Below, in pieces: positions 11,730 through 50,500 of a stretch of 64,000 nt of DNA. Where the stretch lies: assembly GCA_963678705.1 (NCBI GenBank), contig OY783208.1, forward strand, positions 17,991,486-18,055,485, read 5' to 3'. Origin of the DNA: Panorpa germanica (lineage: Eukaryota; Arthropoda; Insecta; Mecoptera; Panorpidae). The notes below the pieces were generated by a model. The model saw only the letters and a list, made by a program, of their open reading frames with translations, did no database searches and had not been told where the DNA came from. The stretch's first letter is position 1. The number at the start of each line of letters is the position of its first letter. The translations under genes were made by a program, and so were the position numbers.

Positions 11730-11817
11730 TTATAGATTGAGAAACGAAAAGAAAGGCTGCAGATACTGGGAAAATAGAGAGAAAGGATGTGCAAGGTGTG
11801 CTTGCACATAAAGTATT

Positions 11818-14646: not shown

Positions 14647-14680
14647 TTCTACTTTTTTTCTCAGCGACAGTGGTGGTCTC

Positions 14681-21070: not shown

Positions 21071-21251
21071 TATTTATTAATCAAAGCACTAACCGTATTG
21101 AAGTTTTAGTCTATTTATTTCTTCATATGAATAACTATTGTTGCAGACTTTAAAAAGTAGAATTCCATTTAGTTTTATACCCCTGACCATCCCTAACGAA
21201 GAACAACATCCCTTCAAACGAACTCTTACACAATTCTGGTGGTAGCGTTAG

Positions 21252-21928
21252 TAATGGGCTTGTGTCCTCATTTTTTTAGTGGTCGATTTTTCAATTGTTG
21301 ATTGAAATTGATGTTAATAAATGTGTATTGGCGTGTCTATTTTATTAAATATCTAAATATTGACGGAGATATAGCAATTAAAAGTTTGAATTGAAGTTGA
21401 CGTGAAATGCATTTTATACGTCAGTTATTTGTTGAGTAGGTCAGTGCTGTGGTAATGTTCTGTAGCTGTTGGTAGTCAAATAATCAAGTCAAATCAAAGA
21501 ATTATAAGTTTTTATTTTATTTAACCCTGCTAAGGCAGACATAATATTGGAATTTGAGTGTTCCTTGAAATAGCTGTAAATAATATTTGTTATTTTGATA
21601 TATATATATACATATAGCAGAGATCTATGAGCTGTAAGGTTAGTAACCTGTAAACTTGTCAGAGTTCTGTCAAGAATATATCTCTTTTATGCTCTGTTGT
21701 ATAAAAGTGAAACAACATAGCGGTTGTAACGTTACATGTCTTGGAATGTTGTACAACGTTAAATCACTTTAATAATTAAAGAGACAAAATCAGTTTTTTA
21801 ATTGTTAATATCTCTTAACATATAAGGACTTATTAAAAAATAATTGAACATTTGAGGTTCTAGTAACCCACTTTATCAATATATAGTACACTTTTGTAGA
21901 AATTAAGACATAGGACACATGCCCATTA
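21252..21928 (+). mobile_element. Inverted-repeat element, copy 2
   Basis: Ends are TAATGGGCTTGTGTCCTC and AGGACACATGCCCATTA, a 17-base terminal inverted repeat with a single mismatch. It is the cleanest full-length copy (677 bp). It is the segmental-duplication twin of 4675-5349. No coding frame. Confidence 0.75.
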
Positions 21929-22930
21929 GTTAGTTTCTTTGTTGTAATACTTTGATAGTTTTGTTAAATTTTACACGTTGTTTGGTTTTAATACAGCAAT
22001 AAAAAAACCGTAATATGGAATAGTGTTCAAAGAAATTGTAAGTTGTTTTTATCTACATATAATTATTTTCTGATGAAGTGAAATGTTTGGTTATCGAGTA
22101 TTAATTATTAAATTTTTAGGGCCCCCTAATAGTAAACGGGTTGGTCTGAAGACGAAATCTTATGCAATAAAAATCTTTATTAATTTTTTATGTTTGTACT
22201 GCAATTTTAAAAATAAACAATTGTACACAAAAACGGTTGTTGTAAAATTGCTTATTGGTAAGAATTAATTCTCAAAGAAATAAATTGCAGTATAAGAAAT
22301 AGAAAGGTAACAAATAAAAAACGAAACCTTTTTTTAAATAAACTTTAAATTATTGCTCTCCCACAGTTGCATCTATTAAAGTTTTGATGGGAAATCTACG
22401 GACGTGGCGTACAATGCATTGGAATTTTATATAACGTTGTATCACTTTAATTAAAGAGAGAAAATGCCATTTTTAGTTCCAACAGCATCCACTTGTTGTT
22501 ATTCATCTACACAATGCAACTTAGTGCTTATTGTTGCTGGTGTTTCATTGGAACAAACATTACTTTTTAAAGCTGTACCTTCATCCATACTTTTTCAGTT
22601 ATTTTCTAAAAATTTGTTTTCATTTCTTATCTGAATTTTATAAATTTAATTCTGCTTTTAATTTTATTAAAAAAAATAATTTTGTGATTTAAATTAAATA
22701 GGGATTCGTAGTTTAACTAAGCAAAAGCAACTCTTCCAGTTCAGGGACTACCGTCGTAGTTTAACTAACTGGGTACATCATGCGAGAGTAGAAATATATA
22801 GTGTTGAACTGAGCATAATCGACGACCAAAGTGTTTTAGATCACTAACTGATCCATTCTCTGTGAATTTCTTAATTAATTCTTCACAGTCGCTTAATTTA
22901 AATCACAGTTTGAACCATAATTTGCATAAA
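21929..22930 (+). repeat. Segmental-duplication block with GGGCCCC landmark (copy 3)
   Basis: It is the same sequence as 5350-6370 and 16305-17250, and leads into zinc-finger gene 3. The spacing from gene 2 to gene 3 (5.7 kb, ATG to ATG) is probably the basic duplication unit. Confidence 0.75.
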
Positions 22931-23761: not shown

Positions 23762-24835
23762 TAAACTTCAAAATTGTTCTGCACATAATGGAGGATTGCA
23801 AATTAGAACAAATAAAGACAGAAGTTGATGTGCGATTAACTGAACCAAAGGAAACAGAAAATTTAAGCAAATTTGTGGAAAAGAAGTAAAAGAAGAACGT
23901 ATCGTCAAAGAAGCAGCGCTATGTGATGAAATAAAAACAGAATTCAAAAAAGAACCAGAATATAACTCAGATGAAGCTGCACATTTACTGCGAGATGTTT
24001 ACCTCATTAAGCTTGAAGTTCCAGAGCAACAACTTCAAAGTGAAATGAATACGAACCTGAAGCCTTATATTTGTGATGTATGTAACAAATTGTTGGACTC
24101 TAAGGCAGAAATCAAAAAACATTTGCGTGTACATTCAGCAAAGAAACTACACTCTTGTAATACATGTAGTAAAATATTTGCTAATTCGTCAAATTTAAAA
24201 CGACATAAAAACACACATTTAGACGTAAAACCATTTTCTTGCTACGAATGTAGTAAAACATTTAGTCTATTATCAAATTTAAAACAACATAAAAACACTC
24301 ATTTACTTGTAAAACCATTTTCTTGTGACGTTTGTAGTAAAACATTCAGTTGTTCTTTGGGTTTAAAGCAACATAAAACTAGACATTAAGTGAAATGCCA
24401 TTCTCTTGCAATGAATGCTGTAAAACGTTTAGTCTATCATATGATTTAAAACGACATAAAAACACACATTTAGGTCTAAACCCATTTTCTTGCGACCAAT
24501 GCTGCAAAACGTTTAATTATCCACATCATTTAAAACAACATAAAAACACACATTTAGATGTAAAACCATTTGCTTGCGATGTATGTAGTAAAACGTTTAG
24601 TCAACCAATTCAATTAAAACGACATAAAAACACACATTTAGGTCTAAACCCATTTTCTTGCGACCAATGCTGCAAAACGTTTAATTATCCACATCATTTA
24701 AAACGACATAAAAACTCACATTTAGATGTAAAACCATTTGCTTGCGATGAATGTAGTAAAACGTTTAGTCAACCAATTCAATTAAAACGACATAAAAAAA
24801 CACATTTAGTTGTAGAACCATTGGTTAAATTATAA
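23762..24835 (+). pseudogene. C2H2 zinc-finger pseudogene, gene 3 (two frameshifts)
   Basis: The acceptor and ATG (23788) are intact, but a 1-bp deletion relative to gene 4, near 23876-23884, produces a stop at 23887 after 33 codons. The finger frame resumes downstream (open from about 24045) with four fingers. A second 1-bp deletion in the linker of the fourth finger (CATAAAACTAGACAT) gives a stop at 24387, and five more fingers follow in another frame to 24835. Ligands in the fingers are otherwise complete, so loss looks recent. The tail EPLVKL is that of genes 1, 2 and 6. Base-calling errors could explain the indels, but both are outside long homopolymers. Confidence 0.8.
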
Positions 24836-26165: not shown

Positions 26166-26560
26166 AATGGACAATAATGTGACTCCAAAATGTTTACTGG
26201 GTACTAACGAAGATAAAGTTGATGCGAACTATAATTGAAGTGCAATAGTGATAGAAACTTCACAATACAGGACACTTCACCTAATTGTTTACTGGGCATC
26301 ATGTGAGACCAGAACTTTTGCGTGCGCTGCACTATTGTATTTGGAACATTCAATGCCGCATTATGCGCTCTTGTGCCGCAATTGTGGAACATCAAATATG
26401 TCCAATTCTTGACCACGGTCTGGACTTTTCGCATCACTTTTACAAACTGCTTCGATGTTTTGTGTTAAACGACGGTCAAAGTGTCCCAGATCACTAACTG
26501 ATCCAGTTTCCTTGAATTTCTTAATTAATTTCTTCACAGTCGCTTAATTTAAATCACAGT
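26166..26560 (+). repeat. Composite repeat: exon-like fragment plus upstream block
   Basis: The part at about 26175-26300 matches the reverse complement of about 8770-9010 (the possible terminal exon ending MRTIIEVQ). The part at about 26330-26560 matches 565-800 and 47200-47440 (landmark CATTCAATGCCGCATTATG). Spurious 70-77 codon frames on both strands are not treated as genes. Confidence 0.6.
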
Positions 26561-27407
26561 TTGCACTATAATTTGCACAAACGTTGCGAATTGTAACTGC
26601 CAAGCCTTCACTATGCTTAAAACATTACTTAATAACGAAAACAACAAATTTTAGTAATAATTAATTAAACGGACATGACGGCAAATATTGAAAGCATTTG
26701 AAAAATATGTTTCTTGGCTTAATGATTAAAGAGACAAAAAATACTCTGTTAATGGGCTTGTGAAGTTCAATTTTATTGATAGGTTTGCACATAAATTAAA
26801 AAATACTTTGAAAAAAGATATTGTATTACAATAAAATATAGTTTATATCAGTCGTATAAATATTCAAGTTTATAAATCCCGCTAAAGCTATTTAAACAAC
26901 AGCAAAGAAATACTCCGTCCTCGAACCACAAAACCCATTTAAAATAAAGAAAACTGAAATATCTTTATTTTGACAGCTCATTGAAAAGGTTTTACTCAGT
27001 TCATCTTATTCAATTAATATTTTACAAAAATAAACGGTTGCCGATTTTTGAGAAAAGTGTCTGAGTTAGTAAATTAATATATAAATGTATAATACCCTAT
27101 TATATTAAAATGTTTTTTTTATTTATTATTACTTTATATTTTAGGGAGAAAGAAACTAAAAATTAAAATGGTCATTGCCTTAAGTGTTTTAATCTCGCCT
27201 TTTATATGAAATTTATTTATTTAGTTAATGTTTTACAAAGCATACATTTATTACAGAAATGCTTTTAAGTTAATTTAGCTTACCCTCTGTTATTTATATT
27301 TATTATGTCACATAGTTTTGTTTCATATCTTAAACACTTTAGATTTATTTTTTTTAATATATATTTCTCATCTTTTTGGTGCAAGAATTTATTTTTTTCC
27401 TTTTTAG

Positions 27408-28288
27408 TAAACTGCACAATTGTTCTACATATAATGGAAGATTGCAAATTAGAACAAATAAAGACAGAAGTTGATGTGGGATTAACTGAACAAATAGAAA
27501 CAGAAAATTTAAGCAAAGATATGGAAATAGAAGTAAAAGAAGACGGAAAACAAGTAGCGCTATGTGATGAAATAAAAATAGAAATTAAAAGAGAAGAAGA
27601 ATATAGTTCAAATGAAGCTACACATCTACCCCGAGATGACTACTTTACTGAGTATGCAGTTTCAGTGCAACAACTTCAAAGTGAAATAAATACTAACCTT
27701 ATATGTATGCATTATATTTGTGATGTATGTAACACATTGTTGGACAGTAAGACAGAAATCATAAAACATTTGCGTGTACATTCAGCAAAGAAAGTACATT
27801 CTTGTAATACAAGTAGTAAAATATTTGCTAATTCGTCAAATTTAAAACGACATAAAAACACACATTCAGTTTTAAATCCATTTTCTTGCGACAAATGTAG
27901 TAGAACGTTCTCTAATTCATATAATTTAAAACGACATAAAAACGCACGTTTAACTGTAAAACCATTTTCTTGCACAGAATGTAGTAAATCGTTCAATCAT
28001 TCACATCATTTAAAACAACATAAAAACACACATTTAGTTGTAAAACCATTTTCTTGTGACGAATGTAGTAAAACATTCAGTCAATCTATTCAATTAAAAT
28101 TACATAAAAATAGACATCTGGATGTAAAGCCATTTTCTTGTAATGAATGTAGTAAAACATTTAGTCAATCATCACATTTAAATTTACATAAAAACACACA
28201 TTTAGATGTAAAACCATTTTCTTGCAATGAATGTAGTAAAATGTTCAGTCAATCAGATTTATTAAAACGTCATAATTGTCTCATTTAG
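27408..28288 (+). CDS. C2H2 zinc-finger gene 4, first reading frame, leading into the array
   Basis: The acceptor CCTTTTTAG ends at 27407 and the ATG is at 27434. The 284-residue frame has the acidic N-terminal domain (IKTEVDVGLTEQIE, then EIEVKED, IKIEIK) and seven fingers. Finger 2 has lost its second Cys (CNTS), finger 3 its last His (KNAR), and finger 7 is broken by the deletion that turns the codons for HKMSH into HNCLI-stop at 28286-28288. After the stop comes the 16-kb array. A shortened protein with four intact fingers (1, 4, 5, 6) could still be made, but the very long 3' part would make the mRNA a nonsense-mediated-decay candidate. I read it as a decaying gene whose 3' exon expanded. 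Confidence 0.6.
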
Positions 28289-31200
28289 TTGTAAAACCAT
28301 TTTCTTGCGACGAATGTAGTAAATCGTTCACAAGATTAAATCAATTAAAACTACTTAAAAACACACATTTAGTAGTAATACCATTTTCTTGCGACGAATG
28401 TAGCAAAATGTTCAGTCAATCAGATTTATTAAAACGTCATAATTGTCTCATTTAGTTGTAAAACCATTTTCTTGCGACGAATGTAGTAAATCGTTCACAA
28501 GATTAAATCAATTAAAACTACTTAAAAACACACATTTAGTAGTAATACCATTTTCTTGCGACGAATGTAGTAAATCGTTCACAAGATTAAATCAATTAAA
28601 ACTACTTAAAAACACACATTTAGTAGTAATACCATTTTCTTGCGACGAATGTAGTAAATCGTTCACAAGATTAAATCAATTAAAACTACTTAAAAACACA
28701 CATTTAGTAGTAATACCATTTTCTTGCGACGAATGTAGTAAATCGTTCACAAGATTAAATCAATTAAAACTACTTAAAAACACACATTTAGTAGTAATAC
28801 CATTTTCTTGCGACGAATGTAGTAAATCGTTCACAAGATTAAATCAATTAAAACTACTTAAAAACACACATTTAGTAGTAATACCATATTCTTGCGACGA
28901 ATGTAGTAAATCGTTCACAAGATTAAATCAATTAAAACTACTTAAAAACACACATTTAGTAGTAATACCATTTTCTTGCGACGAATGTAGCAAAATGTTC
29001 AGTCAATCAGATTTATTAAAACGTCATAATTGTCTCATTTAGTTGTAAAACCATTTTCTTGCGACGAATGTAGTAAATCGTTCACAAGATTAAATCAATT
29101 AAAACTACTTAAAAACACACATTTAGTAGTAATACCATTTTCTTGCGACGAATGTAGTAAATCGTTCACAAGATTAAATCAATTAAAACTACTTAAAAAC
29201 ACACATTTAGTAGTAATACCATTTTCTTGCGACGAATGTAGCAAAATGTTCAGTCAATCAGATTTATTAAAACGTCATAAGATGTCTCATTTTGTTGTAA
29301 AACCATTTTCTTGCGACGAATGTAGTAAATCGTTCACAAGATTAAATCAATTAAAACTACTTAAAAACACACATTTAGTAGTAATACCATTTTCTTGCGA
29401 CGAATGTAGCAAAATGTTCAGTCAATCAGATTTATTAAAACGTCATAATTGTCTCATTTAGTTGTAAAACCATTTTCTTGCGACGAATGTAGTAAATCGT
29501 TCACAAGATTAAATCAATTAAAACTACTTAAAAACACACATTTAGTAGTAATACCATTTTCTTGCGACGAATGTAGTAAATCGTTCACAAGATTAAATCA
29601 ATTAAAACTACTTAAAAACACACATTTAGTAGTAATACCATTTTCTTGCGACGAATGTAGTAAATCGTTCACAAGATTAAATCAATTAAAACTACTTAAA
29701 AACACACATTTAATAGTAATACCATTTTCTTGCGACGAATGTAGCAAAATGTTCAGTCAATCAGATTTATTAAAACGTCATAATTGTCTCATTTAGTTGT
29801 AAAACCATTTTCTTGCGACGAATGTAGTAAATCGTTCACAAGATTAAATCAATTAAAACTACTTAAAAACACACATTTAGTAGTAATACCATTTTCTTGC
29901 GACGAATGTAGTAAATCGTTCACAAGATTAAATCAATTAAAACTACTTAAAAACACACATTTAGTAGTAATACCATTTTCTTGCGACGAATGTAGTAAAT
30001 CGTTCACAAGATTAAATCAATTAAAACTACTTAAAAACACACATTTAGTAGTAATACCATTTTCTTGCGACGAATGTAGTAAATCGTTCACAAGATTAAA
30101 TCAATTAAAACTACTTAAAAACACACATTTAGTAGTAATACCATTTTCTTGCGACGAATGTAGTAAATCGTTCACAAGATTAAATCAATTAAAACTACTT
30201 AAAAACACACATTTAGTAGTAATACCATATTCTTGCGACGAATGTAGTAAATCGTTCACAAGATTAAATCAATTAAAACTACTTAAAAACACACATTTAG
30301 TAGTAATACCATTTTCTTGCGACGAATGTAGTAAATCGTTCATAAGATTAAATCAATTAAAACTACTTAAAAACACACATTTAGTAGTAATACCATTTTC
30401 TTGCGACGAATGTAGCAAAATGTTCAGTCAATCAGATTTATTAAAACGTCATAAGATGTCTCATTTTGTTGTAAAACCATTTTCTTGCGACGAATGTAGT
30501 AAATCGTTCACAAGATTAAATCAATTAAAACTACTTAAAAACACACATTTAGTAGTAATACCATTTTCTTGCGACGAATGTAGTAAATCGTTCACAAGAT
30601 TAAATCAATTAAAACTACTTAAAAACACACATTTAGTAGTAATACCATATTCTTGCGACGAATGTAGTAAATCGTTCACAAGATTAAATCAATTAAAACT
30701 ACTTAAAAACACACATTTAGTAGTAATACCATTTTCTTGCGACGAATGTAGCAAAATGTTCAGTCAATCAGATTTATTAAAACGTCATAAGATGTCTCAT
30801 TTTGTTGTAAAACCATTTTCTTGCGACGAATGTAGTAAATCGTTCACAAGATTAAATCAATTAAAACTACTTAAAAACACACATTTAGTAGTAATACCAT
30901 TTTCTTGCGACGAATGTAGCAAAATGTTCAGTCAATCAGATTTATTAAAACGTCATAATTGTCTCATTTAGTTGTAAAACCATTTTCTTGCGACGAATGT
31001 AGTAAATCGTTCACAAGATTAAATCAATTAAAACTACTTAAAAACACACATTTAGTAGTAATACCATTTTCTTGCGACGAATGTAGTAAATCGTTCACAA
31101 GATTAAATCAATTAAAACTACTTAAAAACACACATTTAGTAGTAATACCATTTTCTTGCGACGAATGTAGTAAATCGTTCACAAGATTAAATCAATTAAA

Positions 31201-31726
31201 ACTACTTAAAAACACACATTTAGTAGTAATACCATTTTCTTGCGACGAATGTAGTAAATCGTTCACAAGATTAAATCAATTAAAACTACTTAAAAACACA
31301 CATTTAGTAGTAATACCATTTTCTTGCGACGAATGTAGTAAATCGTTCACAAGATTAAATCAATTAAAACTACTTAAAAACACACATTTAGTAGTAATAC
31401 CATATTCTTGCGACGAATGTAGTAAATCGTTCACAAGATTAAATCAATTAAAACTACTTAAAAACACACATTTAGTAGTAATACCATTTTCTTGCGACGA
31501 ATGTAGTAAATCGCTCACAAGATTAAATCAATTAAAACTACTTAAAAACACACATTTAGTAGTAATACCATTTTCTTGCGACGAATGTAGTAAATCGTTC
31601 ACAAGATTAAATCAATTAAAACTACTTAAAAACACACATTTAGTAGTAATACCATTTTCTTGCGACGAATGTAGCAAAATGTTCAGTCAATCAGATTTAT
31701 TAAAACGTCATAATTGTCTCATTTAG

Positions 31727-34700
31727 TTGTAAAACCATTTTCTTGCGACGAATGTAGTAAATCGTTCACAAGATTAAATCAATTAAAACTACTTAAAAAC
31801 ACACATTTAGTAGTAATACCATTTTCTTGCGACGAATGTAGTAAATCGTTCACAAGATTAAATCAATTAAAACTACTTAAAAACACACATTTAGTAGTAA
31901 TACCATTTTCTTGCGACGAATGTAGTAAATCGTTCACAAGATTAAATCAATAAAACTACTTAAAAACACACATTTAGTAGTAATACCATTTTCTTGCGAC
32001 GAATGTAGTAAATCGTTCACAAGATTAAATCAATTAAAACTACTTAAAAACACACATTTAGTAGTAATACCATTTTCTTGCGACGAATGTAGCAAAATGT
32101 TCAGTCAATCAGATTTATTAAAACGTCATAATTGTCTCATTTAGTTGTAAAACCATTTTCTTGCGACGAATGTAGTAAATCGTTCACAAGATTAAATCAA
32201 TTAAAACTACTTAAAAACACACATTTAGTAGTAATACCATTTTCTTGCGACGAATGTAGTAAATCGTTCACAAGATTAAATCAATTAAAACTACTTAAAA
32301 ACACACATTTAGTAGTAATACCATTTTCTTGCGACGAATGTAGTAAATCGTTCACAAGATTAAATCAATTAAAACTACTTAAAAACACACATTTAGTAGT
32401 AATACCATTTTCTTGCGACGAATGTAGTAAATCGTTCACAAGATTAAATCAATTAAAACTACTTAAAAACACACATTTAGTAGTAATACCATTTTCTTGC
32501 GACGAATGTAGTAAATCGTTCACAAGATTAAATCAATTAAAACTACTTAAAAACACACATTTAGTAGTAATACCATTTTCTTGCGACGAATGTAGCAAAA
32601 TGTTCAGTCAATCAGATTTATTAAAACGTCATAATTGTCTCATTTAGTTGTAAAACCATTTTCTTGCGACGAATGTAGTAAATCGTTCACAAGATTAAAT
32701 CAATTAAAACTACTTAAAAACACACATTTAGTAGTAATACCATTTTCTTGCGACGAATGTAGTAAATCGTTCACAAGATTAAATCAATTAAAATTACTTA
32801 AAAACACACATTTAGTAGTAATACCATTTTCTTGCGACGAATGTAGTAAATCGTTCACAAGATTAAATCAATTAAAACTACTTAAAAACACACATTTAGT
32901 AGTAATACCATTTTCTTGCGACGAATGTAGTAAATCGTTCACAAGATTAAATCAATTAAAACTACTTAAAAACACACATTTAGTAGTAATACCATTTTCT
33001 TGCGACGAATGTAGCAAAATGTTCAGTCATTCAGATTTATTAAAACGTCATAAGATGTCTCATTTAGTTGTAAAACCATTTTCTTGCGATGAATGTAGTA
33101 AATTGTTCACAAGATTAAATCAATTAAAACTACTTAAAAACACACATTTAGTAGTAATACCATTTTCTTGCGACGAATGTAGTAAATCGTTCACAAGATT
33201 AAATCAATTAAAACTACTTAAAAACACACATTTAGTAGTAATACCATTTTCTTGCGACGAATGTAGTAAATCGTTCACAAGATTAAATCAATTAAAACTA
33301 CTTAAAAACACACATTTAGTAGTAATACCATTTTCTTGCGACGAATATAGCAAAATGTTCAGTCAATCAGATTTATTAAAACGTCATAATTGTCTCATTT
33401 AGTTGTAAAACCATTTTCTTGCGACGAATGTAGTAAATCGTTCACAAGATTAAATCAATTAAAACTATTTAAAAACACACATTTAGTAGTAATACCATTT
33501 TCTTGCGACGAATGTAGTAAATCGTTCACAAGATTAAATCAATTAAAACTACTTAAAAACACACATTTAGTAGTAATACCATTTTCTTGCGACGAATGTA
33601 GTAAATCGTTCACAAGATTAAATCAATTAAAACTACTTAAAAACACACATTTAGTAGTAATACCATTTTCTTGCGACGAATGTAGTAAATCGTTCACAAG
33701 ATTAAATCAATTAAAACTACTTAAAAACACACATTTAGTAGTAATACCATTTTCTTGCGACGAATGTAGCAAAATGTTCAGTCATTCAGATTTATTAAAA
33801 CGTTATAAGATGTCTCATTTAGTTGTAAAACCATTTTCTTGCGATGAATGTAGTAAATCGTTCACAAGTTTAAATCAATTAAAACTACTTAAAAACACAC
33901 ATTTAGTAGTAATACCATTTTCTTGCGACGAATGTAGTAAATCGTTCACAAGATTAAATCAATTAAAACTACTTAAAAACACACATTTAGTAGTAATACC
34001 ATTTTCTTGCGACGAATGTAGTAAATCGTTCACAAGATTAAATCAATTAAAACTACTTAAAAACACACATTTAGTAGTAATACCATTTTCTTGCGACGAA
34101 TGTAGTAAATCGTTCACAAGATTAAATCAATTAAAACTACTTAAGAACACACATTTAGTAGTAATACCATTTTCTTGCGACGAATGTAGCAAAATGTTCA
34201 GTCAATCAGATTTATTAAAACGTCATAATTGTCTCATTTAGTTGTAAAACCATTTTCTTGCGACGAATGTAGTAAATCGTTCACAAGATTAAATCAATTA
34301 AAACTACTTAAAAACACACATTTAGTAGTAATACCATTTTCTTGCGACGAATGTAGTAAATCGTTCACAAGATTAAATCAATTAAAACTACTTAAAAACA
34401 CACATTTAGTAGTAATACCATTTTCTTGCGACGAATGTAGTAAATCGTTCACAAGATTAAATCAATTAAAACTACTTAAAAACACACATTTAGTAGTAAT
34501 ACCATTTTCTTGCGACGAATGTAGTAAATCGTTCACAAGATTAAATCAATTAAAACTACTTAAAAACACACATTTAGTAGTAATACCATTTTCTTGCGAC
34601 GAATGTAGTAAATCGCTCACAAGATTAAATCAATTAAAACTACTTAAAAACACACATTTAGTAGTAATACCATTTTCTTGCGACGAATGTAGTAAATCGT

Positions 34701-35498
34701 TTACAAGATTAAATCAATTAAAACTACTTAAAAACACACATTTAGTAGTAATACCATTTTCTTGCGACGAATGTAGCAAAATGTTCAGTCAATCAGATTT
34801 ATTAAAACGTCATAATTGTCTCATTTAGTTGTAAAACCATTTTCTTGCGACGAATGTAGTAAATCGTTCACAAGATTAAATCAATTAAAACTACTTAAAA
34901 ACACACATTTAGTAGTAATACCATTTTCTTGCGACGAATGTAGTAAATCGTTCACAAGATTAAATCAATTAAAACTACTTAAAAACACACATTTAGTAGT
35001 AATACCATTTTCTTGCGACGAATGTAGTAAATCGTTCACAAGATTAAATCAATTAAAACTACTTAAAAACACACATTTAGTAGTAATACCATTTTCTTGC
35101 GACGAATGTAGCAAAATGTTCAGTCAATCAGATTTATTAAAACGTCATAATTGTCTCATTTAGTTGTAAAACCATTTTCTTGCGACGAATGTAGTAAATC
35201 GTTCACAAGATTAAATCAATTAAAACTACTTAAAAACACACATTTAGTAGTAATACCATTTTCTTGCGACGAATGTAGTAAATCGTTCACAAGATTAAAT
35301 CAATTAAAACTACTTAAAAACACACATTTAGTAGTAATACCATTTTCTTGCGACGAATGTAGTAAATCGTTCACAAGATTAAATCAATTAAAACTACTTA
35401 AAAACACACATTTAGTAGTAATACTATTTTCTTGCGACGAATGTAGCAAAATGTTCAGTCAATCAGATTTATTAAAACGTCATAATTGTCTCATTTAG
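31727..35498 (+). repeat. Long higher-order repeat period (about 3.77 kb)
   Basis: The block beginning with a 418-bp subunit (three A units with a 1-bp deletion in the third, CAATAAAACTAC, then A, then B) at 31727-32144 recurs at 35499-35916. Both are followed by blocks containing the 755-bp arrangement A4-B-A3-B (32648-33402 and 36504-37258). The shared private deletion shows that a multi-kilobase part of the array was duplicated. Confidence 0.7.
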
Positions 35499-37902
35499 TT
35501 GTAAAACCATTTTCTTGCGACGAATGTAGTAAATCGTTCACAAGATTAAATCAATTAAAACTACTTAAAAACACACATTTAGTAGTAATACCATTTTCTT
35601 GCAACGAATGTAGTAAATCGTTCACAAGATTAAATCAATTAAAACTACTTAAAAACACACATTTAGTAGTAATACCATTTTCTTGCGACGAATGTAGTAA
35701 ATCGTTCACAAGATTAAATCAATAAAACTACTTAAAAACACACATTTAGTAGTAATACCATTTTCTTGCGACGAATGTAGTAAATCGTTCACAAGATTAA
35801 ATCAATTAAAACTACTTAAAAACACACATTTAGTAGTAATACCATTTTCTTGCGACGAATGTAGCAAAATGTTCAGTCAATCAGATTTATTAAAACGTCA
35901 TAATTGTCTCATTTAGTTGTAAAACCATTTTCTTGCGACGAATGTAGTAAATCGTTCACAAGATTAAATCAATTAAAACTACTTAAAAACACACATTTAG
36001 TAGTAATACCATTTTCTTGCGACGAATGTAGTAAATCGTTCACAAGATTAAATCAATTAAAACTACTTAAAAACACACATTTAGTAGTAATACCATTTTC
36101 TTGCGACGAATGTAGTAAATCGTTCACAAGATTAAATCAATTAAAACTACTTAAAAACACACATTTAGTAGTAATACCATTTTCTTGCGACGAATGTAGT
36201 AAATCGTTCACAAGATTAAATCAATTAAAACTACTTAAAAACACACATTTAGTAGTAATACCATTTTCTTGCGACGAATGTAGTAAATCGTTCACAAGAT
36301 TAAATCAATTAAAACTACTTAAAAACACACATTTAGTAGTAATACCATTTTCTTGCGACGAATGTAGTAAATCGTTCACAAGATTAAATCAATTAAAACT
36401 ACTTAAAAACACACATTTAGTAGTAATACCATTTTCTTGCGACGAATGTAGCAAAATGTTCAGTCAATCAGATTTATTAAAACGTCATAATTGTCTCATT
36501 TAGTTGTAAAACCATTTTCTTGCGACGAATGTAGTAAATCGTTCACAAGATTAAATCAATTAAAACTACTTAAAAACACACATTTAGTAGTAATACCATT
36601 TTCTTGCGACGAATGTAGTAAATCGTTCACAAGATTAAATCAATTAAAACTACTTAAAAACACACATTTAGTAGTAATACCATTTTCTTGCGACGAATGT
36701 AGTAAATCGTTCACAAGATTAAATCAATTAAAACTACTTAAAAACACACATTTAGTAGTAATACCATTTTCTTGCGACGAATGTAGTAAATCGTTCACAA
36801 GATTAAATCAATTAAAACTACTTAAAAACACACATTTAGTAGTAATACCATTTTCTTGCGACGAATGTAGCAAAATGTTCAGTCATTCAGATTTATTAAA
36901 ACGTCATAAGATGTCTCATTTAGTTGTAAAACCATTTTCTTGCGATGAATGTAGTAAATCGTTCACAAGATTAAATCAATTAAAACTACTTAAAAACACA
37001 CATTTAGTAGTAATACCATTTTCTTGCGACGAATGTAGTAAATCGTTCACAAGATTAAATCAATTAAAACTACTTAAAAACACACATTTAGTAGTAATAC
37101 CATTTTCTTGCGACGAATGTAGTAAATCGTTCACAAGATTAAATCAATTAAAACTACTTAAAAACACACATTTAGTAGTAATACCATTTTCTTGCGACGA
37201 ATGTAGCAAAATGTTCAGTCAATCAGATTTATTAAAACGTCATAATTGTCTCATTTAGTTGTAAAACCATTTTCTTGCGACGAATGTAGTAAATCGTTCA
37301 CAAGATTAAATCAATTAAAACTACTTAAAAACACACATTTAGTAGTAATACCATTTTCTTGCGACGAATGTAGTAAATCGTTCACAAGATTAAATCAATT
37401 AAAACTACTTAAAAACACACATTTAGTAGTAATACCATTTTCTTGCGACGAATGTAGTAAATCGTTCACAAGATTAAATCAATTAAAACTACTTAAAAAC
37501 ACACATTTAGTAGTAATACCATTTTCTTGCGACGAATGTAGTAAATCGTTCACAAGATTAAATCAATTAAAACTACTTAAAAACACACATTTAGTAGTAA
37601 TACCATTTTCTTGCGACGAATGTAGCAAAATGTTCAGTCATTCAGATTTATTAAAACGTCATAAGATGTCTCATTTAGTTGTAAAACCATTTTCTTGCGA
37701 TGAATGTAGTAAATCGTTCACAAGATTAAATCAATTAAAACTACTTAAAAACACACATTTAGTAGTAATACCATTTTCTTGCGACGAATGTAGTAAATCG
37801 TTCACAAGATTAAATCAATTAAAACTACTTAAAAACACACATTTAGTAGTAATACCATTTTCTTGCGACGAATGTAGTAAATCGTTCACAAGATTAAATT
37901 AA

Positions 37903-39160
37903 TTAAAACTACTTAAAAACACACATTTAGTAGTAATACCATTTTCTTGCGACGAATGTAGTAAATCGTTCACAAGATTAAATCAATTAAAACTACTTAA
38001 AAACACACATTTAGTAGTAATACCATTTTCTTGCGACGAATGTAGTAAATCGTTCACAAGATTAAATCAATTAAAACTACTTAAAAACACACATTTAGTA
38101 GTAATACCATTTTCTTGCGACGAATGTAGTAAATCGTTCACAAGATTAAATCAATTAAAACTACTTAAAAACACACATTTAGTAGTAATACCATTTTCTT
38201 GCGACGAATGTAGTAAATCGTTCACAAGATTAAATCAATTAAAACTACTTAAAAACACACATTTAGTAGTAATACCATTTTCTTGCGACGAATGTAGCAA
38301 AATGTTCAGTCATTCAGATTTATTAAAACGTCATAAGATGTCTCATTTAGTTGTAAAACCATTTTCTTGCGATGAATGTAGTAAATCGTTCACAAGATTA
38401 AATCAATTAAAACTACTTAAAAACACACATTTAGTAGTAATACCATTTTCTTGCGACGAATGTAGCAAAATGTTCAGTCATTCAGATTTATTAAAACGTC
38501 ATAAGATGTCTCATTTAGTTGTAAAACCATTTTCTTGCGATGAATGTAGTAAATCGTTCACAAGATTAAATCAATTAAAACTACTTAAAAACACACATTT
38601 AGTAGTAATACCATTTTCTTGCGACGAATGTAGTAAATCGTTCACAAGATTAAATCAATTAAAACTACTTAAAAACACACATTTAGTAGTAATACCATTT
38701 TCTTGCGACGAATGTAGTAAATCGTTCACAAGATTAAATTAATTAAAACTACTTAAAAACACACATTTAGTAGTAATACCATTTTCTTGCGACGAATGTA
38801 GTAAATCGTTCACAAGATTAAATCAATTAAAACTACTTAAAAACACACATTTAGTAGTAATACCATTTTCTTGCGACGAATGTAGTAAATCGTTCACAAG
38901 ATTAAATCAATTAAAACTACTTAAAAACACACATTTAGTAGTAATACCATTTTCTTGCGACGAATGTAGTAAATCGTTCACAAGATTAAATCAATTAAAA
39001 CTACTTAAAAACACACATTTAGTAGTAATACCATTTTCTTGCGACGAATGTAGTAAATCGTTCACAAGATTAAATCAATTAAAACTACTTAAAAACACAC
39101 ATTTAGTAGTAATACCATTTTCTTGCGACGAATGTAGCAAAATGTTCAGTCATTCAGATT
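37903..39160 (+). repeat. 840-bp higher-order repeat
   Basis: The pattern B-A-B-A7 (10 units, 840 bp) is present twice or nearly so. The same CAA-to-TAA nonsense change occurs at 37900-37902 and 38740-38742, and the B units with the Gln-to-His change (FSHSD) start at 38302 and 39142, exactly 840 bp apart in each case. Confidence 0.85.
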
Positions 39161-42100
39161 TATTAAAACGTCATAAGATGTCTCATTTAGTTGTAAAACC
39201 ATTTTCTTGCGATGAATGTAGTAAATCGTTCACAAGATTAAATCAATTAAAACTACTTAAAAACACACATTTAGTAGTAATACCATTTTCTTGCGACGAA
39301 TGTAGCAAAATGTTCAGTCATTCAGATTTATTAAAACGTCATAAGATGTCTCATTTAGTTGTAAAACCATTTTCTTGCGATGAATGTAGTAAATCGTTCA
39401 CAAGATTAAATCAATTAAAACTACTTAAAAACACACATTTAGTAGTAATACCATTTTCTTGCGACGAATGTAGTAAATCGTTCACAAGATTAAATCAATT
39501 AAAACTACTTAAAAACACACATTTAGTAGTAATACCATTTTCTTGCGACGAATGTAGTAAATCGTTCACAAGATTAAATCAATTAAAACTACTTAAAAAC
39601 ACACATTTAGTAGTAATACCATTTTCTTGCGACGAATGTAGTAAATCGTTCACAAGATTAAATCAATTAAAACTACTTAAAAACACACATTTAGTAGTAA
39701 TACCATTTTCTTGCGACGAATGTAGTAAATCGTTCACAAGATTAAATCAATAAAAACTACTTAAAAACACACATTTAGTAGTAATACCATTTTCTTGCGA
39801 CGAATGTAGCAAAATGTTCAGTCAATCAGATTTATTAAAACGTCATAATTGTCTCATTTAGTTGTAAAACCATTTTCTTGCGACGAATGTAGTAAATCGT
39901 TCACAAGATTAAATCAATTAAAACTACTTAAAAACACACATTTAGTAGTAATACCATTTTCTTGCGACGAATGTAGTAAATCGTTCACAAGATTAAATCA
40001 ATTAAAACTACTTAAAAACACACATTTAGTAGTAATACCATTTTCTTGCGACGAATGTAGTAAATCGTTCACAAGATTAAATCAATAAAAACTACTTAAA
40101 AACACACATTTAGTAGTAATACCATTTTCTTGCGACGAATGTAGCAAAATGTTCAGTCAATCAGATTTATTAAAACGTCATAATTGTCTCATTTAGTTGT
40201 AAAACCATTTTCTTGCGACGAATGTAGTAAATCGTTCACAAGATTAAATCAATTAAAACTACTTAAAAACACACATTTAGTAGTAATACCATTTTCTTGC
40301 GACGAATGTAGCAAAATGTTCAGTCAATCAGATTTATTAAAACGTCATAATTGTCTCATTTAGTTGTAAAACCATTTTCTTGCGACGAATGTAGTAAATC
40401 GTTCACAAGATTAAATCAATTAAAACTACTTAAAAACACACATTTAGTAGTAATACCATTTTCTTGCGACGAATGTAGTAAATCGTTCACAAGATTAAAT
40501 CAATTAAAACTACTTAAAAACACACATTTAGTAGTAATACCATTTTCTTGCGACGAATGTAGCAAAATGTTCAGTCAATCAGATTTATTAAAACGTCATA
40601 ATTGTCTCATTTAGTTGTAAAACCATTTTCTTGCGACGAATGTAGTAAATCGTTCACAAGATTAAATCAATTAAAACTACTTAAAAACACACATTTAGTA
40701 GTAATACCATTTTCTTGCGACGAATGTAGCAAAATGTTCAGTCAATCAGATTTATTAAAACGTCATAATTGTCTCATTTAGTTGTAAAACCATTTTCTTG
40801 CGACGAATGTAGTAAATCGTTCACAAGATTAAATCAATTAAAACTACTTAAAAACACACATTTAGTAGTAATACCATTTTCTTGCGACGAATGTAGTAAA
40901 TCGTTCACAAGATTAAATCAATTAAAACTACTTAAAAACACACATTTAGTAGTAATACCATTTTCTTGCGACGAATGTAGCAAAATGTTCAGTCAATCAG
41001 ATTTATTAAAACGTCATAATTGTCTCATTTAGTTGTAAAACCATTTTCTTGCGACGAATGTAGTAAATCGTTCACAAGATTAAATCAATTAAAACTACTT
41101 AAAAACACACATTTAGTAGTAATACCATTTTCTTGCGACGAATGTAGTAAATCGTTCACAAGATTAAATCAATTAAAACTACTTAAAAACACACATTTAG
41201 TAGTAATACCATTTTCTTGCGACGAATGTAGTAAATCGTTCACAAGATTAAATCAATAAAAACTACTTAAAAACACACATTTAGTAGTAATACCATTTTC
41301 TTGCGACGAATGTAGCAAAATGTTCAGTCAATCAGATTTATTAAAACGTCATAATTGTCTCATTTAGTTGTAAAACCATTTTCTTGCGACGAATGTAGTA
41401 AATCGTTCACAAGATTAAATCAATTAAAACTACTTAAAAACACACATTTAGTAGTAATACCATTTTCTTGCGACGAATGTAGTAAATCGTTCACAAGATT
41501 AAATCAATTAAAACTACTTAAAAACACACATTTAGTAGTAATACCATTTTCTTGCGACGAATGTAGTAAATCGTTCACAAGATTAAATCAATTAAAACTA
41601 CTTAAAAACACACATTTAGTAGTAATACCATTTTCTTGCGACGAATGTAGTAAATCGTTCACAAGATTAAATCAATTAAAACTACTTAAAAACACACATT
41701 TAGTAGTAATACCATTTTCTTGCGACGAATGTAGCAAAATGTTCAGTCATTCAGATTTATTAAAACGTCATAAGATGTCTCATTTAGTTGTAAAACCATT
41801 TTCTTGCGATGAATGTAGTAAATCGTTCACAAGATTAAATCAATTAAAACTACTTAAAAACACACATTTAGTAGTAATACCATTTTCTTGCGACGAATGT
41901 AGCAAAATGTTCAGTCATTCAGATTTATTAAAACGTCATAAGATGTCTCATTTAGTTGTAAAACCATTTTCTTGCGATGAATGTAGTAAATCGTTCACAA
42001 GATTAAATCAATTAAAACTACTTAAAAACACACATTTAGTAGTAATACCATTTTCTTGCGACGAATGTAGTAAATCGTTCACAAGATTAAATCAATTAAA

Positions 42101-43800
42101 ACTACTTAAAAACACACATTTAGTAGTAATACCATTTTCTTGCGACGAATGTAGTAAATCGTTCACAAGATTAAATCAATTAAAACTACTTAAAAACACA
42201 CATTTAGTAGTAATACCATTTTCTTGCGACGAATGTAGCAAAATGTTCAGTCAATCAGATTTATTAAAACGTCATAATTGTCTCATTTAGTTGTAAAACC
42301 ATTTTCTTGCGACGAATGTAGTAAATCGTTCACAAGATTAAATCAATTAAAACTACTTAAAAACACACATTTAGTAGTAATACCATTTTCTTGCGACGAA
42401 TGTAGTAAATCGTTCACAAGATTAAATCAATTAAAACTACTTAAAAACACACATTTAGTAGTAATACCATTTTCTTGCGACGAATGTAGTAAATCGTTCA
42501 CAAGATTAAATCAATAAAAACTACTTAAAAACACACATTTAGTAGTAATACCATTTTCTTGCGACGAATGTAGCAAAATGTTCAGTCAATCAGATTTATT
42601 AAAACGTCATAATTGTCTCATTTAGTTGTAAAACCATTTTCTTGCGACGAATGTAGTAAATCGTTCACAAGATTAAATCAATTAAAACTACTTAAAAACA
42701 CACATTTAGTAGTAATACCATTTTCTTGCGACGAATGTAGTAAATCGTTCACAAGATTAAATCAATTAAAACTACTTAAAAACACACATTTAGTAGTAAT
42801 ACCATTTTCTTGCGACGAATGTAGTAAATCGTTCACAAGATTAAATCAATTAAAACTACTTAAAAACACACATTTAGTAGTAATACCATTTTCTTGCGAC
42901 GAATGTAGTAAATCGTTCACAAGATTAAATCAATAAAAACTACTTAAAAACACACATTTAGTAGTAATACCATTTTCTTGCGACGAATGTAGCAAAATGT
43001 TCAGTCATTCAGATTTATTAAAACGTCATAAGATGTCTCATTTAGTTGTAAAACCATTTTCTTGCGATGAATGTAGTAAATCGTTCACAAGATTAAATCA
43101 ATTAAAACTACTTAAAAACACACATTTAGTAGTAATACCATTTTCTTGCGACGAATGTAGTAAATCGTTCACAAGATTAAATCAATTAAAACTACTTAAA
43201 AACACACATTTAGTAGTAATACCATTTTCTTGCGACGAATGTAGTAAATCGTTCACAAGATTAAATCAATTAAAACTACTTAAAAACACACATTTAGTAG
43301 TAATACCATTTTCTTGCGACGAATGTAGTAAATCGTTCACAAGATTAAATCAATTAAAACTACTTAAAAACACACATTTAGTAGTAATACCATTTTCTTG
43401 CGACGAATGTAGCAAAATGTTCAGTGATTCAGATTTATTAAAACGTCATAAGATGTCTCATTTAGTTGTAAAACCATTTTCTTGCGATGAATGTAGTAAA
43501 TCGTTCACAAGATTAAATCAATTAAAACTACTTAAAAACACACATTTAGTAGTAATACCATTTTCTTGCGACGAATGTAGTAAATCGTTCACAAGATTAA
43601 ATCAATTAAAACTACTTAAAAACACACATTTAGTAGTAATACCATTTTCTTGCGACGAATGTAGTAAATCGTTCACAAGATTAAATCAATTAAAACTACT
43701 TAAAAACACACATTTAGTAGTAATACCATTTTCTTGCGACGAATGTAGCAAAATGTTCAGTCAATCAGATTTATTAAAACGTCATAATTGTCTCATTTAG

Positions 43801-44309
43801 TTGTAAAACCATTTTCTTGCGACGAATGTAGTAAATCGTTCACAAGATTAAATCAATTAAAACTACTTAAAAACACACATTTAGTAGTAATACCATTTTC
43901 TTGCGACGAATGTAGTAAATCGTTCACAAGATTAAATCAATTAAAACTACTTAGAAACACACATTTAGTAGTAATACCATTTTCTTGCGACGAATGTAGT
44001 AAATCGTTCACAAGATTAAATCAATTAAAACTACTTAAAAACACACATTTAGTAGTAATACCATTTTCTTGCGACGAATGTAGTAAATCGTTCACAAGAT
44101 TAAATCAATTAAAACTACTTAAAAACACACATTTAGTTGTAAAACCATTTTCTTGCGACGAATGTAGTAAATCGTTCACAAGATCAAATCAATTAAAACA
44201 ACATAAAAACAAACATTTAGTTACAACACCATTTTCTTGTGGTTTATGTAATATATGTTTCTCAACTGCAGGTACTCTAAAGAGACATCAAAAACGTAAT
44301 TTACATTAG
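43801..44309 (+). pseudogene. 3' end of zinc-finger gene 4 after the array
   Basis: After four last A units comes a finger with complete ligands (CSKSFTRSNQLKQHKNKH), then a terminal finger CGLCNICFSTAGTLKRHQKRNLH and a stop at 44307-44309. The same final finger ends gene 5, so genes 4 and 5 share a C-terminal type unlike the EPLVKL tail of genes 1, 2, 3 and 6. No ATG starts this frame; it is the displaced tail of gene 4. Confidence 0.75.
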
Positions 44310-45984
44310 GTTGAGTAAGTCGTTTTTACATATCCTAACTTATTCCTATTAGTTTTACTGTATAAAGTTTATTGAATAAATATTGGTAGAACGACAAAGG
44401 ACCCTGAACCGATTTTATGTGGTAAGGGACATCCTTTTCTTCTTAGTTAATTCCGTTAATGGTTTGTACTACATATTTAGATGTAAAATAATAATTTATC
44501 TATATATAAGGAATGATGTAGATCTGCAGAGGGTTAGGGGGTATATATACAGATTGGAGCTTAACAAAAGAAGACAGTCTTATTTCAAAACTCAATAACC
44601 ACACTTTAAAACTAAAATTCAAAAGTAGTTTAAGTACCTTAATAATTGTAAAAGAAAGTTAAAACATAAATTTTTGATACTTCGGCGTTCTCTCGGAGAG
44701 CCCGAATAAATTCACGATAAACTAATTGGTAACTCTGTTATATGTAATTTTAAGATATTTTTTCTGTTTAACTTTATTTTATTAATATATTGTTTTTAAA
44801 TGTGTGTTTGTTTTTTTATCATGTCAGTAATATATCCTTAATTTTCCTATGTCCAATGTGCATTGCGTAACTCTAGATTCCGGTAAATAATTATTATTCT
44901 TATTAATGTTTTTGAGACACTTGTACGCTTTGTATTGAACGCAAAACTGTCTGAGATCGGACCGAATCAATAGTTATATTTAACTGTTTTGGTTTTTTTT
45001 GTTATTAATGTTCATTATTTTATTAGCTGCTTTCCTAATTTACAGCTCATATTTAAATTAGGTGGCGCTGGGAAATAACGTTTTAAAAATTAGATAAAAT
45101 ATAAAGTAAAGAAATTTAAATAGTAAATATAAATAAGGACTCATCCCGCAACAACACCATATCCTGTTGCTGTCTTATCCTTTAGCTTTTTCTGATTTTT
45201 TTACACAATTAATAGACGCCTCAGGCAATATGCTCGTTGTCAATTTAACTACCCCTTGAATAACATACCCCATACTCCAACTGACTTATACTCCATCTCT
45301 TAAAACTAAATCAAACCTTATATTGATTCAACATTTAACTATATTCAATTAATTTGTATGTAACTAATTGTTTTTCATTTGTGAACTAATAACCATGTAT
45401 TCTAAATAAAAGAAGACATCATGGTTTTATTTCTCCGAGGACATCCTTGTCCACTGTCTTCTGAGATCATCTGCTGCTATTTTTTATTATCGTGTTTTAA
45501 TTACTACATTTTTAGGGCCCCTTGAGGGTAAACAAGTTGGTCTGATTACGAAATCTTCACGAAATAAAAATCTTTATTACTTTTAATAGTTTTTGATGTT
45601 GGTACGGCAATTTTAAAAATAAACAATTGTACACAAAAACAGTTGTTGTAAAATTGTTTATTGGTAAGAATTATTTCTCAAAGAAATAAATGTTTATTCT
45701 TAAAAATACCATCGTTGATGTGACGTCCGATGCTTTGACAACATTCCTGGAATCTCAGATGAAGGTTTCAAATAACTTTATGAAGAAGAGGTCTGGAAAT
45801 CGACGAAATTTTCACTCGCTTTTATTATTAAACTAAATGATAAATTATATTATATGTTTTATAAAAACGTTTATTTATTTTTACTTTGTATTCTTCGGAC
45901 ATAATAACTATTTTAATCTTCTAAGATGCAAATCAAGAAGAAAATTTAATATTTATTGAACTACAAATTATCTATTACATTTAT
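44310..45984 (+). other. 3' flank of gene 4 and intergenic DNA
   Basis: Parts of 44310-45470 match the 3' flank of gene 5 (49578-50150), for example AAGTCGTTTTTAC and AAAAGAAGACATCA. The stretch 45500-45690 is a partial copy of the GGGCCCC-landmark block. I see no gene. Short open frames such as 44383-44598 lack support. Confidence 0.5.
44375..44380 (+). promoter_or_regulatory. Candidate poly(A) signal AATAAA
   Basis: It lies 66 bp after the stop of the gene 4 tail. A paralogous AATAAA in the same context (TAAATATTGGTAG follows) lies after gene 5 at 49652-49657. Conservation between the two supports a role in 3' end formation. Confidence 0.4.
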
Positions 45985-47600
45985 TGGCAAAATGGTAGCG
46001 TCAAATAAGTTGTCTCGCGGGGGTTTGTTGCGCCTCCTAAGGTGGCGGATCGAGGAAGCTCGCTAGCTTGGTGGAGAGTGGTAAACTACATATCACACAC
46101 ATACACTCGTATGCGTAGCTGTTGTATAAACGAGATGGAGAATATACGGACGTGGCGTACAATGCATTAGAATTTTATATAACGTTGTATCACTTTAATT
46201 AAAGAGAGAAAATGCCATTTTTAGTTCCAATAGCATCCACTTGTTGTTGTTCATTTATTCAAGGCGACTTAGTGCTTATTGTTGCGGGTGTTTAATTGGA
46301 ACAAACATTACTTTTTAAAGCTGTACCTTCATCCATACTTTTTCAGTTATTTTCTTAAAATTTGTTTTCATTTCTTATGTGAATTTTATAAATTTAATTT
46401 TGTTTTTAATTTTATTCAAAAAAAATATTTTTATGATTTAAATTAAATAGGGATTCTTGGAAATAGAAATCCATTAAAATGGGCTAGTGTCCTATGTCTT
46501 AATTTCTATAAAAGTGTACTATATATTGATAAAGTGGGTTACTAGAACCTCAAATGTTCAAATATTTTTTAATAACTCCTTATATTTCAGGAGATATTAA
46601 CAATTAAAAAAGTCATTTTGTCCTTTTAATTATTAAAGGGATTCAACGTTGTACACATTCCAAGTGCATGTGACATCACAATCCTTGTGTAAGTTTACCA
46701 ACCTTACAGCTAATAAATCTCTGCTATATGTATTTATATATCAAAATATCAAATATTATTTACAGCTATTTCAAGGAACAATCAAATTTCAATTCTGCCT
46801 TAGCAGGGTTAAATAAAATAAAAACTTATTATTCTTTAATTTGACTTGATTATTTGTTTACCAACAGCTACAAAACATTACCACAGCACTGACCTACTCA
46901 ACAAATAACTGACGTTAAAATGTATTCACTTCATACAAATATGGCTGACCATTTCTAGCGCTAAAACTACAATTCAAACTTTTAATTGCTATATTTCCGT
47001 CCACATTTAGATATTTAATAAAATAGACACGCCAATACACATTTATTAACATTAATTTCAATCAACAATTGAAAAATCGACCACTAAGAAATGAGGACAT
47101 AAGTCCATTGTCAACCATATCAAAAGTTCTACATTTTATGCTAATTAGTTGGTATCAATTGGGCACATCATGCGAGAGCAGAACTTTATGAAGTGTTGAA
47201 CTGTGCGAGGCACTGCTGTACTTGGAACATTCAATGCCGCATTATGCTCTCTTGTGCCGTAATTGGAGAACATTCAATATGTCCAATTCTTGACCACGGT
47301 CTGGACTCTTTGCAACACTTTTACAAACTGTTTCGATGTTTTGTGTTAAACGACGGTCAATGTGTCTCAGATCACTAACCGGTACAGTCTCCTTGAATTT
47401 CTTAATTAATTTCTTCACAGTCGCTTAATTTAAATCACAGTGTTGGCCTTAATTTGCATAAACGTTGCGAATTGTAACAGCCAAGCCTTCATTATGCTTA
47501 AAACATTACTTAATAATGAATACAACACATTTTAGTAATAATTCATTAAACGGACAGGACGGCAAATATTGAAAATATTTAAAAAAAACATGTTTCTTGG
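45985..47600 (+). repeat. Upstream segmental-duplication block (copy 2)
   Basis: It is homologous to 1-960 at the start of the window, with an inverted-repeat element (46478-47109) inserted. It leads into zinc-finger gene 5 as its partner leads into gene 1. Confidence 0.8.
46478..47109 (-). mobile_element. Inverted-repeat element, copy 6 (with empty-site comparison)
   Basis: Ends are AATGGGCTAGTGTCCTATG and TGAGGACATAAGTCCATT. The homologous position in copy 1 of the block (about 475-510, GGAAATAGTAATCCATAATA then TTGTCAACCATATC) lacks the element, while here the same two flanks are about 640 bp apart. This is direct evidence that the family transposes, and that this copy went in after the block was duplicated (or was lost from the other). 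Confidence 0.75.
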
Positions 47601-48295: not shown

Positions 48296-49577
48296 ATGGA
48301 GGACTGCAAATTAGAACAAATAAAGCTAGAAGTTGATGTGGGATTAACTGAACAAATAGACCCGGAAAATTTAAACGGAGATATTAAAATAGAAATAGAA
48401 GAAGGACGAGTCGTCATAGAAGCAGCGCTATATGATGAAATAAAAACTGAATTTAAAGAAGAACCAGAATATAGTACAGATGAAGCTACACATTTACCCC
48501 ATGATGACTACTTTATTAAACTGGAAGTTCTTGAGCAACAACTTCAAAGTGAAATTAATACGAACGTGAAGCCTTATACCTGTGATGTATGTAACAAATT
48601 GTTGGACACTAAGGGAGAAGTCAGAAAACATTTGCGTGTACATTCAGCAAAGAAACTACATTCTTCTAATACATGTAGTAAAATATTTGCTAATTCCTCA
48701 AATTTAAAACGACATAAAAACACACATTTAGGTGTAAAACCTTTTTCTTGCTACGAATGCAGTAAAACATTCAGTCTATCATCTTATTTAAAACAACATC
48801 AAAACACACATTTAGATTTAAACCCATTTTCTTGCAATGAATGTAGTAAAACGTTTAGTGGATCATCAGAATTAAAACGATATAAAAACACACATTTAGA
48901 TGTAAAGCCATTTTCTTGCGATGAATGTAGTAAAACGTTTAGTCAACCAATTCAATTAAAACTACATAAAAAATACACATTTAGGTTTGAAACCATTTTC
49001 TTGCGACGAATGTAGTAAATCGTTCACAAGATCAAATCAATTAAAACTACATAAAAACACACATTTAGTTATAAAACCATTTTCTTGCGACGAATGTAGC
49101 AAAATGTTCAGTCAATCAGATTTATTAAAACGTCATAAGATGTCTCATTTAGTTGTAAAAACATTTTTTTGCAATGAATGTTATAAAACGTTCAGTCAAT
49201 CAATTCAATTAAAACAACATAAAAATACACACTTAGGTGTGAAACCATTTTCTTGCGACGAATGTAATAAATCGTTCACTAGGTCAAATCAATTAAAGCA
49301 CCATAAAAAGACACATTTAGTCGTAAAACCATTTTCCTGCGACGAATGTAGTAAAACGTTCAGTCTATCATCTAATTTAAAACGACATAAAAACACACAT
49401 TTAACGTTAAAACCTTTTTCTTGCGACGAATGCAGTAAAACGTTCAGTGAATCAATTGTATTAAAACGACATCAAAACACACATTTAGGTGTAAAACCAT
49501 TTTGTTGTGGGTTATGTAATAAATGTTTTTCATCTTCTAGTTCTTTAAAGAAACATCAAAAACGTAATTTACATTAG
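48296..49577 (+). pseudogene. C2H2 zinc-finger pseudogene, gene 5 (holds the array's progenitor pair)
   Basis: The ATG at 48296 opens 239 codons. An extra A in a run of A (48968-48973) shifts the frame in finger 5, giving a stop at 49013-49015. The finger frame continues from about 48987 to a stop at 49575-49577. There are twelve fingers in all. Finger 2 lacks its first Cys (HSSNTC) and finger 4 has Tyr for His (KRYKNTH). The upstream acceptor reads TTTTTAC instead of TTTTTAG. Fingers 6 and 7 (CSKSFTRSNQLKLHKNTH and CSKMFSQSDLLKRHKMSH) are the single-copy equivalents of array types A and B, with all ligands present. The single insertion alone could be a sequencing error, but acceptor and ligand losses agree with decay. 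Confidence 0.75.
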
Positions 49578-50214: not shown

Positions 50215-50500
50215 TAATGGGCTTGTGTCCTATGTCTTAATTTCTATAAAAGTGTACTATATATTGATAAAGTGGGTTACTAGAACCTCAATTGTTCAAT
50301 TATTTGTTAATAACTCCTTATATGTTAAGAGATATGAACAATTAAAAAAATCATTTTGTCTCTTTAATTATTAAAGGGATTCAACGTTGTATACATTCCA
50401 AGTGCATGTGACATCACAATCCTTGTGTAAGGTTACCAACCTTACAGCTCATAAATCTCTGCTATATGTATTTATACATATCAAAATATATATTGATATT
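50215..50500 (-). mobile_element. Inverted-repeat element, copy 7 (truncated)
   Basis: It begins TAATGGGCTTGTGTCCTATG and follows the family for about 280 bp. Near 50490-50515 it switches into the upstream region of a gene 5-like unit (matching from about 47675). The junction is a duplication breakpoint inside the element. Confidence 0.65.

Follow-up and report, generated by a model that had tools for sequence, protein, structure and literature searches.

Introduction

Satellite and macrosatellite DNA is made up of head-to-tail units that are homogenised, duplicated block-wise and neutral-looking in their variation. Here, we describe an array that is head-to-tail, homogenised, block-duplicated and neutral-looking in the same way, but that forms one 16-kilobase (kb) locus inside a gene of the insect Panorpa germanica and consists of C2H2 zinc-finger units. 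The 64,000-nucleotide stretch analysed, hereafter the window, corresponds to positions 17,991,486-18,055,485 of contig OY783208.1 (C5) and lies at 18.0 of the 24.8 megabases (Mb) of that contig, in an assembly of 464 Mb and 249 contigs that also served for our genome searches. Coordinates are window positions unless preceded by C5.

Two described systems come closest. The mouse Prdm9 array is described in PMC3890296 as an 84-base-pair (bp) coding minisatellite subject to concerted evolution, conversion and changes in repeat number, with its central part the most variable, and Prdm9 is reported, in PMC3213085, not to be functional in dogs, wolves and coyotes. In both Prdm9 and the window array the unit is one 84-bp C2H2 finger; however, the laboratory strain cited for Prdm9 carries 12 fingers, as against 190 out-of-frame units here. 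The ZF271-like genes of Oncopeltus, which PMC6444547 likens to the aphid APEZ, form tandem clusters with probable pseudogenes. They share with our locus the recent tandem gene duplicates, the many finger-plus-linker repeats and the frame-disrupted pseudogenes, but have 3-45 repeats per protein, whereas Panorpa has 190 (out of frame) in the window and 350 (mostly in frame) in a second array on the same chromosome. In the open-access literature searched, with some queries oddly phrased, we found no case of a zinc-finger exon turned satellite, although we do not claim that none is in print.

Results

The array lies on the + strand within a gene whose two ends, an ATG at 27,434 and a stop at 44,309, are borne out by open reading frames. 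Upstream of the ATG, a 5' flank common to the paralogous genes (26,322-27,433) forms part of a stretch (26,322-27,840) with 76-86% identity between the array gene and the other gene copies. From the ATG, 284 codons are open (27,434-28,288), specifying an acidic N-terminal part and seven fingers, and this frame ends in the first frameshifted unit. Pfam zf-C2H2 scored far over its cut-off in this 5' part, as well as in the open paralog at 18,096. Tandem Repeats Finder (TRF) reported a single 84-bp array at 27,842-44,239 (195.6 copies, score 25,486), while an anchor count over 27,881-44,232 gave 195 units, of which 29 measure 83 bp and the other 166 measure 84 bp. A homogeneous core delimited by unit anchors and unit classes (28,217-44,147) accounts for 190 units, 161 with the full 84 bp and all 29 of the 83-bp ones, and is flanked by four diverged units before it and one after. 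The latter (44,148-44,231) is the last array-like unit and has its first histidine intact; it is followed by a terminal degenerate finger and the gene end (44,232-44,309), which are common to the gene at 48,296. The core thus matches the original prediction of about 190 near-identical 84-bp units between a gene start and a gene end, and the arithmetic offered with it (185 x 84 - 28) also holds, since the b-type stops described below end at 28,288 and 43,800, 15,512 bases apart.

The core units fall into 146 of type A, 15 of type B (84 bp), 27 of type b (83 bp) and two other 83-bp units. All except these last two lie within 3 bases of their class reference, whereas the units outside the core differ by 8-21 bases, and the edges of the array are therefore abrupt; the B reference used in the class, change, shuffle and cross-gene comparisons is a composite consensus equal to no real unit. 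The A units differ pairwise by 0.6% per site on average, and 111 of them are identical. In its length, its homogeneity and its head-to-tail order, the array resembles satellite DNA.

As protein code, the array is damaged in several ways. The type A unit, FSCDECSKSFTRLNQLKLLKNTHLVVIP, is mostly open, but its first zinc histidine is missing in all 146 copies (Leu in 145 and Phe in one). Type B, whose commonest version, FSCDECSKMFSHSDLLKRHKMSHLVVKP, is identical in 10 of the 15 copies, keeps its ligands with one copy excepted (H19Y). Type b is a B-kind unit in which AAGATG has become AATTG, a net loss of one base that shifts the frame into a stop; this change is common to 27 units, is accompanied by linked substitutions and lies outside any homopolymer. 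The first b unit opens the core (28,217-28,299), where its stop (28,286-28,288) terminates the frame of the gene. Other lesions have also been copied inside the array, namely (i) the nonsense changes L16* (five units) and Q15* (two units) and (ii) another 83-bp deletion (two units). Hence, the units do not all keep four ligands and frame: the A units are without the first histidine, and a base is lost in 29 of the 190 core units. Across 27,301-44,400 there are 469-538 stops in each + frame and 454-500 in each - frame, and the longest open stretch is 395 codons, so that, as had been foreseen, no frame crosses the array. The array shares with PRDM9-type coding minisatellites the tandem one-finger units in one exon with copy-number turnover, and is not, as they are, still coding. 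The 284-residue remnant is probably the most that the gene can make.

Two other accounts of the frame loss were considered and rejected. Programmed frameshifting would be required at 29 separate units, along with nonsense read-through, and sequencing error is set aside for the b class only, in which the change is specific and carries linked substitutions.

The order of damage and growth can be read in part from the unit classes. Because no A unit keeps the first zinc histidine, most of the amplification coincided with or followed damage, and we infer that the histidine had already been lost when nearly all of it was still to come. The coexistence of B and b would place the frameshift within the expansion, at a stage with at least two B units already in place. 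The proposal that amplification outran selection is therefore not fully supported as the sole order of events, given that the histidine is absent from all 146 A units.

We examined the distinct changes among the units for signs of selection on the protein. The A units hold 18, of which 5 are synonymous and 13 non-synonymous (including two stops), where neutrality predicts 5.4 synonymous changes and 0.6 stops; the four changes in the B class are all non-synonymous, with 0.6 synonymous expected. New changes in the array thus look neutral and, since they match the neutral expectation and stops were copied, copying appears to have continued without visible regard to the protein. The ratio of non-synonymous to synonymous substitution rates (dN/dS) in the N-terminal part is 0.61-1.22 in the seven comparisons that involve the array gene and 0.08-1.27 in the 21 others. 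It is higher overall in the array gene, yet the ranges overlap, including those of open genes, and we do not take dN/dS as proof of pseudogenisation.

The order of the units carries a record of growth. A 13-unit block at 37,606-38,697 (+ strand) is repeated exactly at 38,446-39,537, the copies overlapping, which marks a recent multi-unit duplication. Among the 188 core units tested, counting runs with at least three unit types, the longest exactly repeated run is 13 units, whereas in 60 unit-order shuffles it averaged 5.55 and never exceeded 9. Moreover, B-type units (B and b) are never neighbours, and 29 of their 41 successive pairs are spaced by 4, 5 or 2 units. The exact repeat and this spacing therefore point to block duplication, presumably by unequal exchange or conversion.

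The gene at 48,296-49,577 (+ strand; frames 48,296-49,015 and 48,987-49,577) is a frame-broken neighbouring paralog that has the same kind of terminal finger as the array gene, and it contains a probable counterpart of the seed of the array. An adjacent pair of fingers at 48,996-49,163 comprises (i) an A-like finger in which the histidine is present and 79 of 84 bases match the common A unit and (ii) a B-like finger in which 82 of 84 bases match most of the B units (13 of 15). Against the nearest A-B pair actually present in the array, that at 41,631, this pair of fingers is identical at 161 of 168 bases. On these base matches, the pair probably shows the form of the seed dimer. Further, the two gene bodies resemble each other at no more than about 80% (5') and 77% (3'), and because this is far below the likeness of the pair, the A-B pair may have been exchanged between them, in either direction.

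A zinc-finger search in which 150 of 16,093 candidates were scored pointed to an array in a related gene on the same chromosome, at C5:16,670,393-16,700,067. TRF counted 351 copies there, and unit anchors gave 350 units (295 of 84, 51 of 87 and 4 of 86 bases); 346 of them are intact in both frame and ligands, and 205 are identical. The 51 longer units have A8 for A5, adding an in-frame lysine, while the four 86-bp units carry A7; the other units examined have A5 or A8. Since the four A7 units break the frame, this array is not open end to end as assembled, but is divided into stretches of 3,812, 2,596 and 3,272 codons and short ones, the longest holding 129 fingers. It shows at most 10 distinct changes, one of them synonymous, which is too few for a test of selection.

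A close paralog of the second-array gene at C5:15.593 Mb (from 15,592,862) has about 24 units in a frame of 805 codons. The two genes differ by three synonymous and one non-synonymous change over 148 N-terminal codons and align over 4.7 kb at 93.8%; with 350 units against about 24, finger number thus differs some 15-fold between recent duplicates. Growth from about 24 units would fit the homogeneous core better than loss in the paralog. Large finger arrays have therefore arisen at least twice on this chromosome, and the one in the window has lost its code. When the second array was searched against giant proteins, the 108 proteins found (1,328-3,548 residues) held at most 53 C2H2 motifs each and no finger more than twice; candidates were limited to about 1,320-4,200 residues, and larger known arrays may exist.

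The array gene is one of six C2H2 zinc-finger gene copies in the window, all on the + strand and all with an acidic N-terminal part preceding the fingers, starting at 1,616, 18,096, 23,788, 27,434, 48,296 and 51,155. Their fingers are spaced by 84 bp (TRF) and run about 28 residues apart, as in C2H2 poly-zinc-finger proteins. Three copies are open, at 1,616-2,665, 18,096-19,232 (378 residues; Pfam scan) and 51,155-51,952 (265 residues), and the disabled array gene stands beside them as a duplicated (unprocessed) pseudogene would. The other three are broken, and the copy at 23,788-24,835 is disrupted, by sequence reading, in its N-terminal part and one finger. Contrary to the original prediction that ordinary poly-zinc-finger genes keep their frame, half of the copies in the window do not, while the 350-unit array is in frame except at its four A7 units. 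The gene copies at 23,788-24,835 and 48,296-49,577 lost their frame without any large expansion.

For the open paralog at 18,096, residues 1-112 used as a query gave no match at E <= 0.001 among 52 candidates, and a search with a full paralog protein was dominated by generic finger proteins. In the 284-residue frame, the only families that a Pfam scan listed were zinc-finger ones, no search having been aimed at PRDM-type domains.

The remainder of the window holds features of other kinds. A retroelement with matches to integrase, reverse transcriptase, protease and zinc knuckle in several frames lies at 12,070-15,580 (- strand). A short dispersed repeat that looks like a small mobile element occurs in both orientations, its copies about 84-96% alike, at 4,671-5,377, 7,018-7,544, 9,428-10,038, 11,094-11,734, 21,248-21,942, 46,478-47,112, 50,215-50,489 and 56,505-56,966, and also near the second array. 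At 61,454-61,705, an open frame in a stretch richer in guanine plus cytosine resembles a sushi/CCP exon.

Discussion

The explanation that best fits these observations, and that we consider probable, is that the window array is a pseudogenised, runaway coding minisatellite that is satellite-like in behaviour. The claim that a coding exon had turned into a satellite-like array stands as regards its neutral-looking, non-coding tandem evolution, with stops and frameshifts amplified. The word satellite itself goes too far: no exact A unit was present among 20 other loci examined (~145 kb) and, with one locus known here, pseudogenised coding minisatellite is the better term.

The course of events may have been as follows. 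In a tandem cluster of C2H2 genes with fast turnover, the fingers of one member gene, carried in one exon, would constitute an 84-bp coding minisatellite. Within it, neighbouring A and B fingers like those still seen at 48,996-49,163 would have been amplified, between one and a dozen units at a time. Unequal exchange or conversion is the putative process behind the blocks, the homogenised core and the diverged edges that we observe. Most of the amplification would have followed once the A unit was already without its first zinc histidine; while it proceeded, one B unit would have taken the net one-base loss with its stop, which then spread, and the b version now sits at the first unit of the array, ending the frame of the gene. 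Thereafter, the exon would have evolved as non-coding tandem DNA, with stops and frameshifts copied like other variants, and the locus may be en route to a satellite-like array. The 350-unit array would be another runaway on the same chromosome, in which most of the code still survives.

Several points weigh against this account. The neutral test comprises 18 distinct changes (and four in B), with which weak constraint is also compatible, and the N-terminal dN/dS does not discriminate, as one open-gene pair is as high as 1.27. The first unit could have received its frameshift late, by conversion, and the copy number of about 190 comes from one assembly. In addition, the units at 19,131 and 51,854, whose surroundings are 91% alike, also match across genes at 82 of 84 bases, so that the equal match of the B-like finger in the gene at 48,296 is not a unique sign of exchange.

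The alternative that survives best, although we consider it unlikely, is that a short protein of 284 residues (27,434-28,288) still works, the array being a very long 3' untranslated region or spliced out. Its frame is open and has the acidic part and zf-C2H2 matches, splicing-out would be compatible with evidence drawn from sequence only, and the dN/dS values of the array gene overlap those of open genes. However, the seven fingers before the array, all of which had been predicted, include only four with all ligands by reading; the other three have lost a Cys (to Ser), lost a His (to Arg) or been truncated by the frameshift. Further, dN/dS is at least 0.85 in five of the seven array-gene comparisons, a figure that does not itself discriminate.

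Slightly less likely still is that either the number of units or the loss of frame is an assembly artefact. Repeats that are nearly identical can easily be collapsed or expanded in assembly, and the four A7 frame breaks of the second array are of a kind that long reads can make. Set against this, the window sequence contains no N, the b frameshift lies away from homopolymers in 27 units with their linked substitutions, nonsense substitutions exist besides it, and a different second array is present on the same chromosome. That the array is kept for a new non-coding role, as a small-RNA source, a heterochromatin seed or a binding platform, would be favoured solely by its length and homogeneity and is very improbable, because turnover alone yields homogeneity.

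Returning to the runaway coding minisatellite, the origin of new satellites is rarely caught in the act, and here a single chromosome bears arrays that are short and coding, one of 350 units that is mostly in frame and one of 190 that is out of frame, together with a probable seed pair. Loci of this kind may escape annotation pipelines or be wrongly predicted by them. If the second array is translated, the protein would have near-identical fingers by the hundred that recognise a short DNA repeat, and the gene would encode a repeat-binding giant. More tentatively, and with considerable doubt, the finger exons of the C2H2 clusters of this species could be a recurrent nursery of tandem-repeat DNA, with repeated independent runaways, some of which stay coding for a while and others of which become satellite-like. 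This set of loci lets one test directly what keeps the number of fingers in check, protein-level selection or recombination alone.

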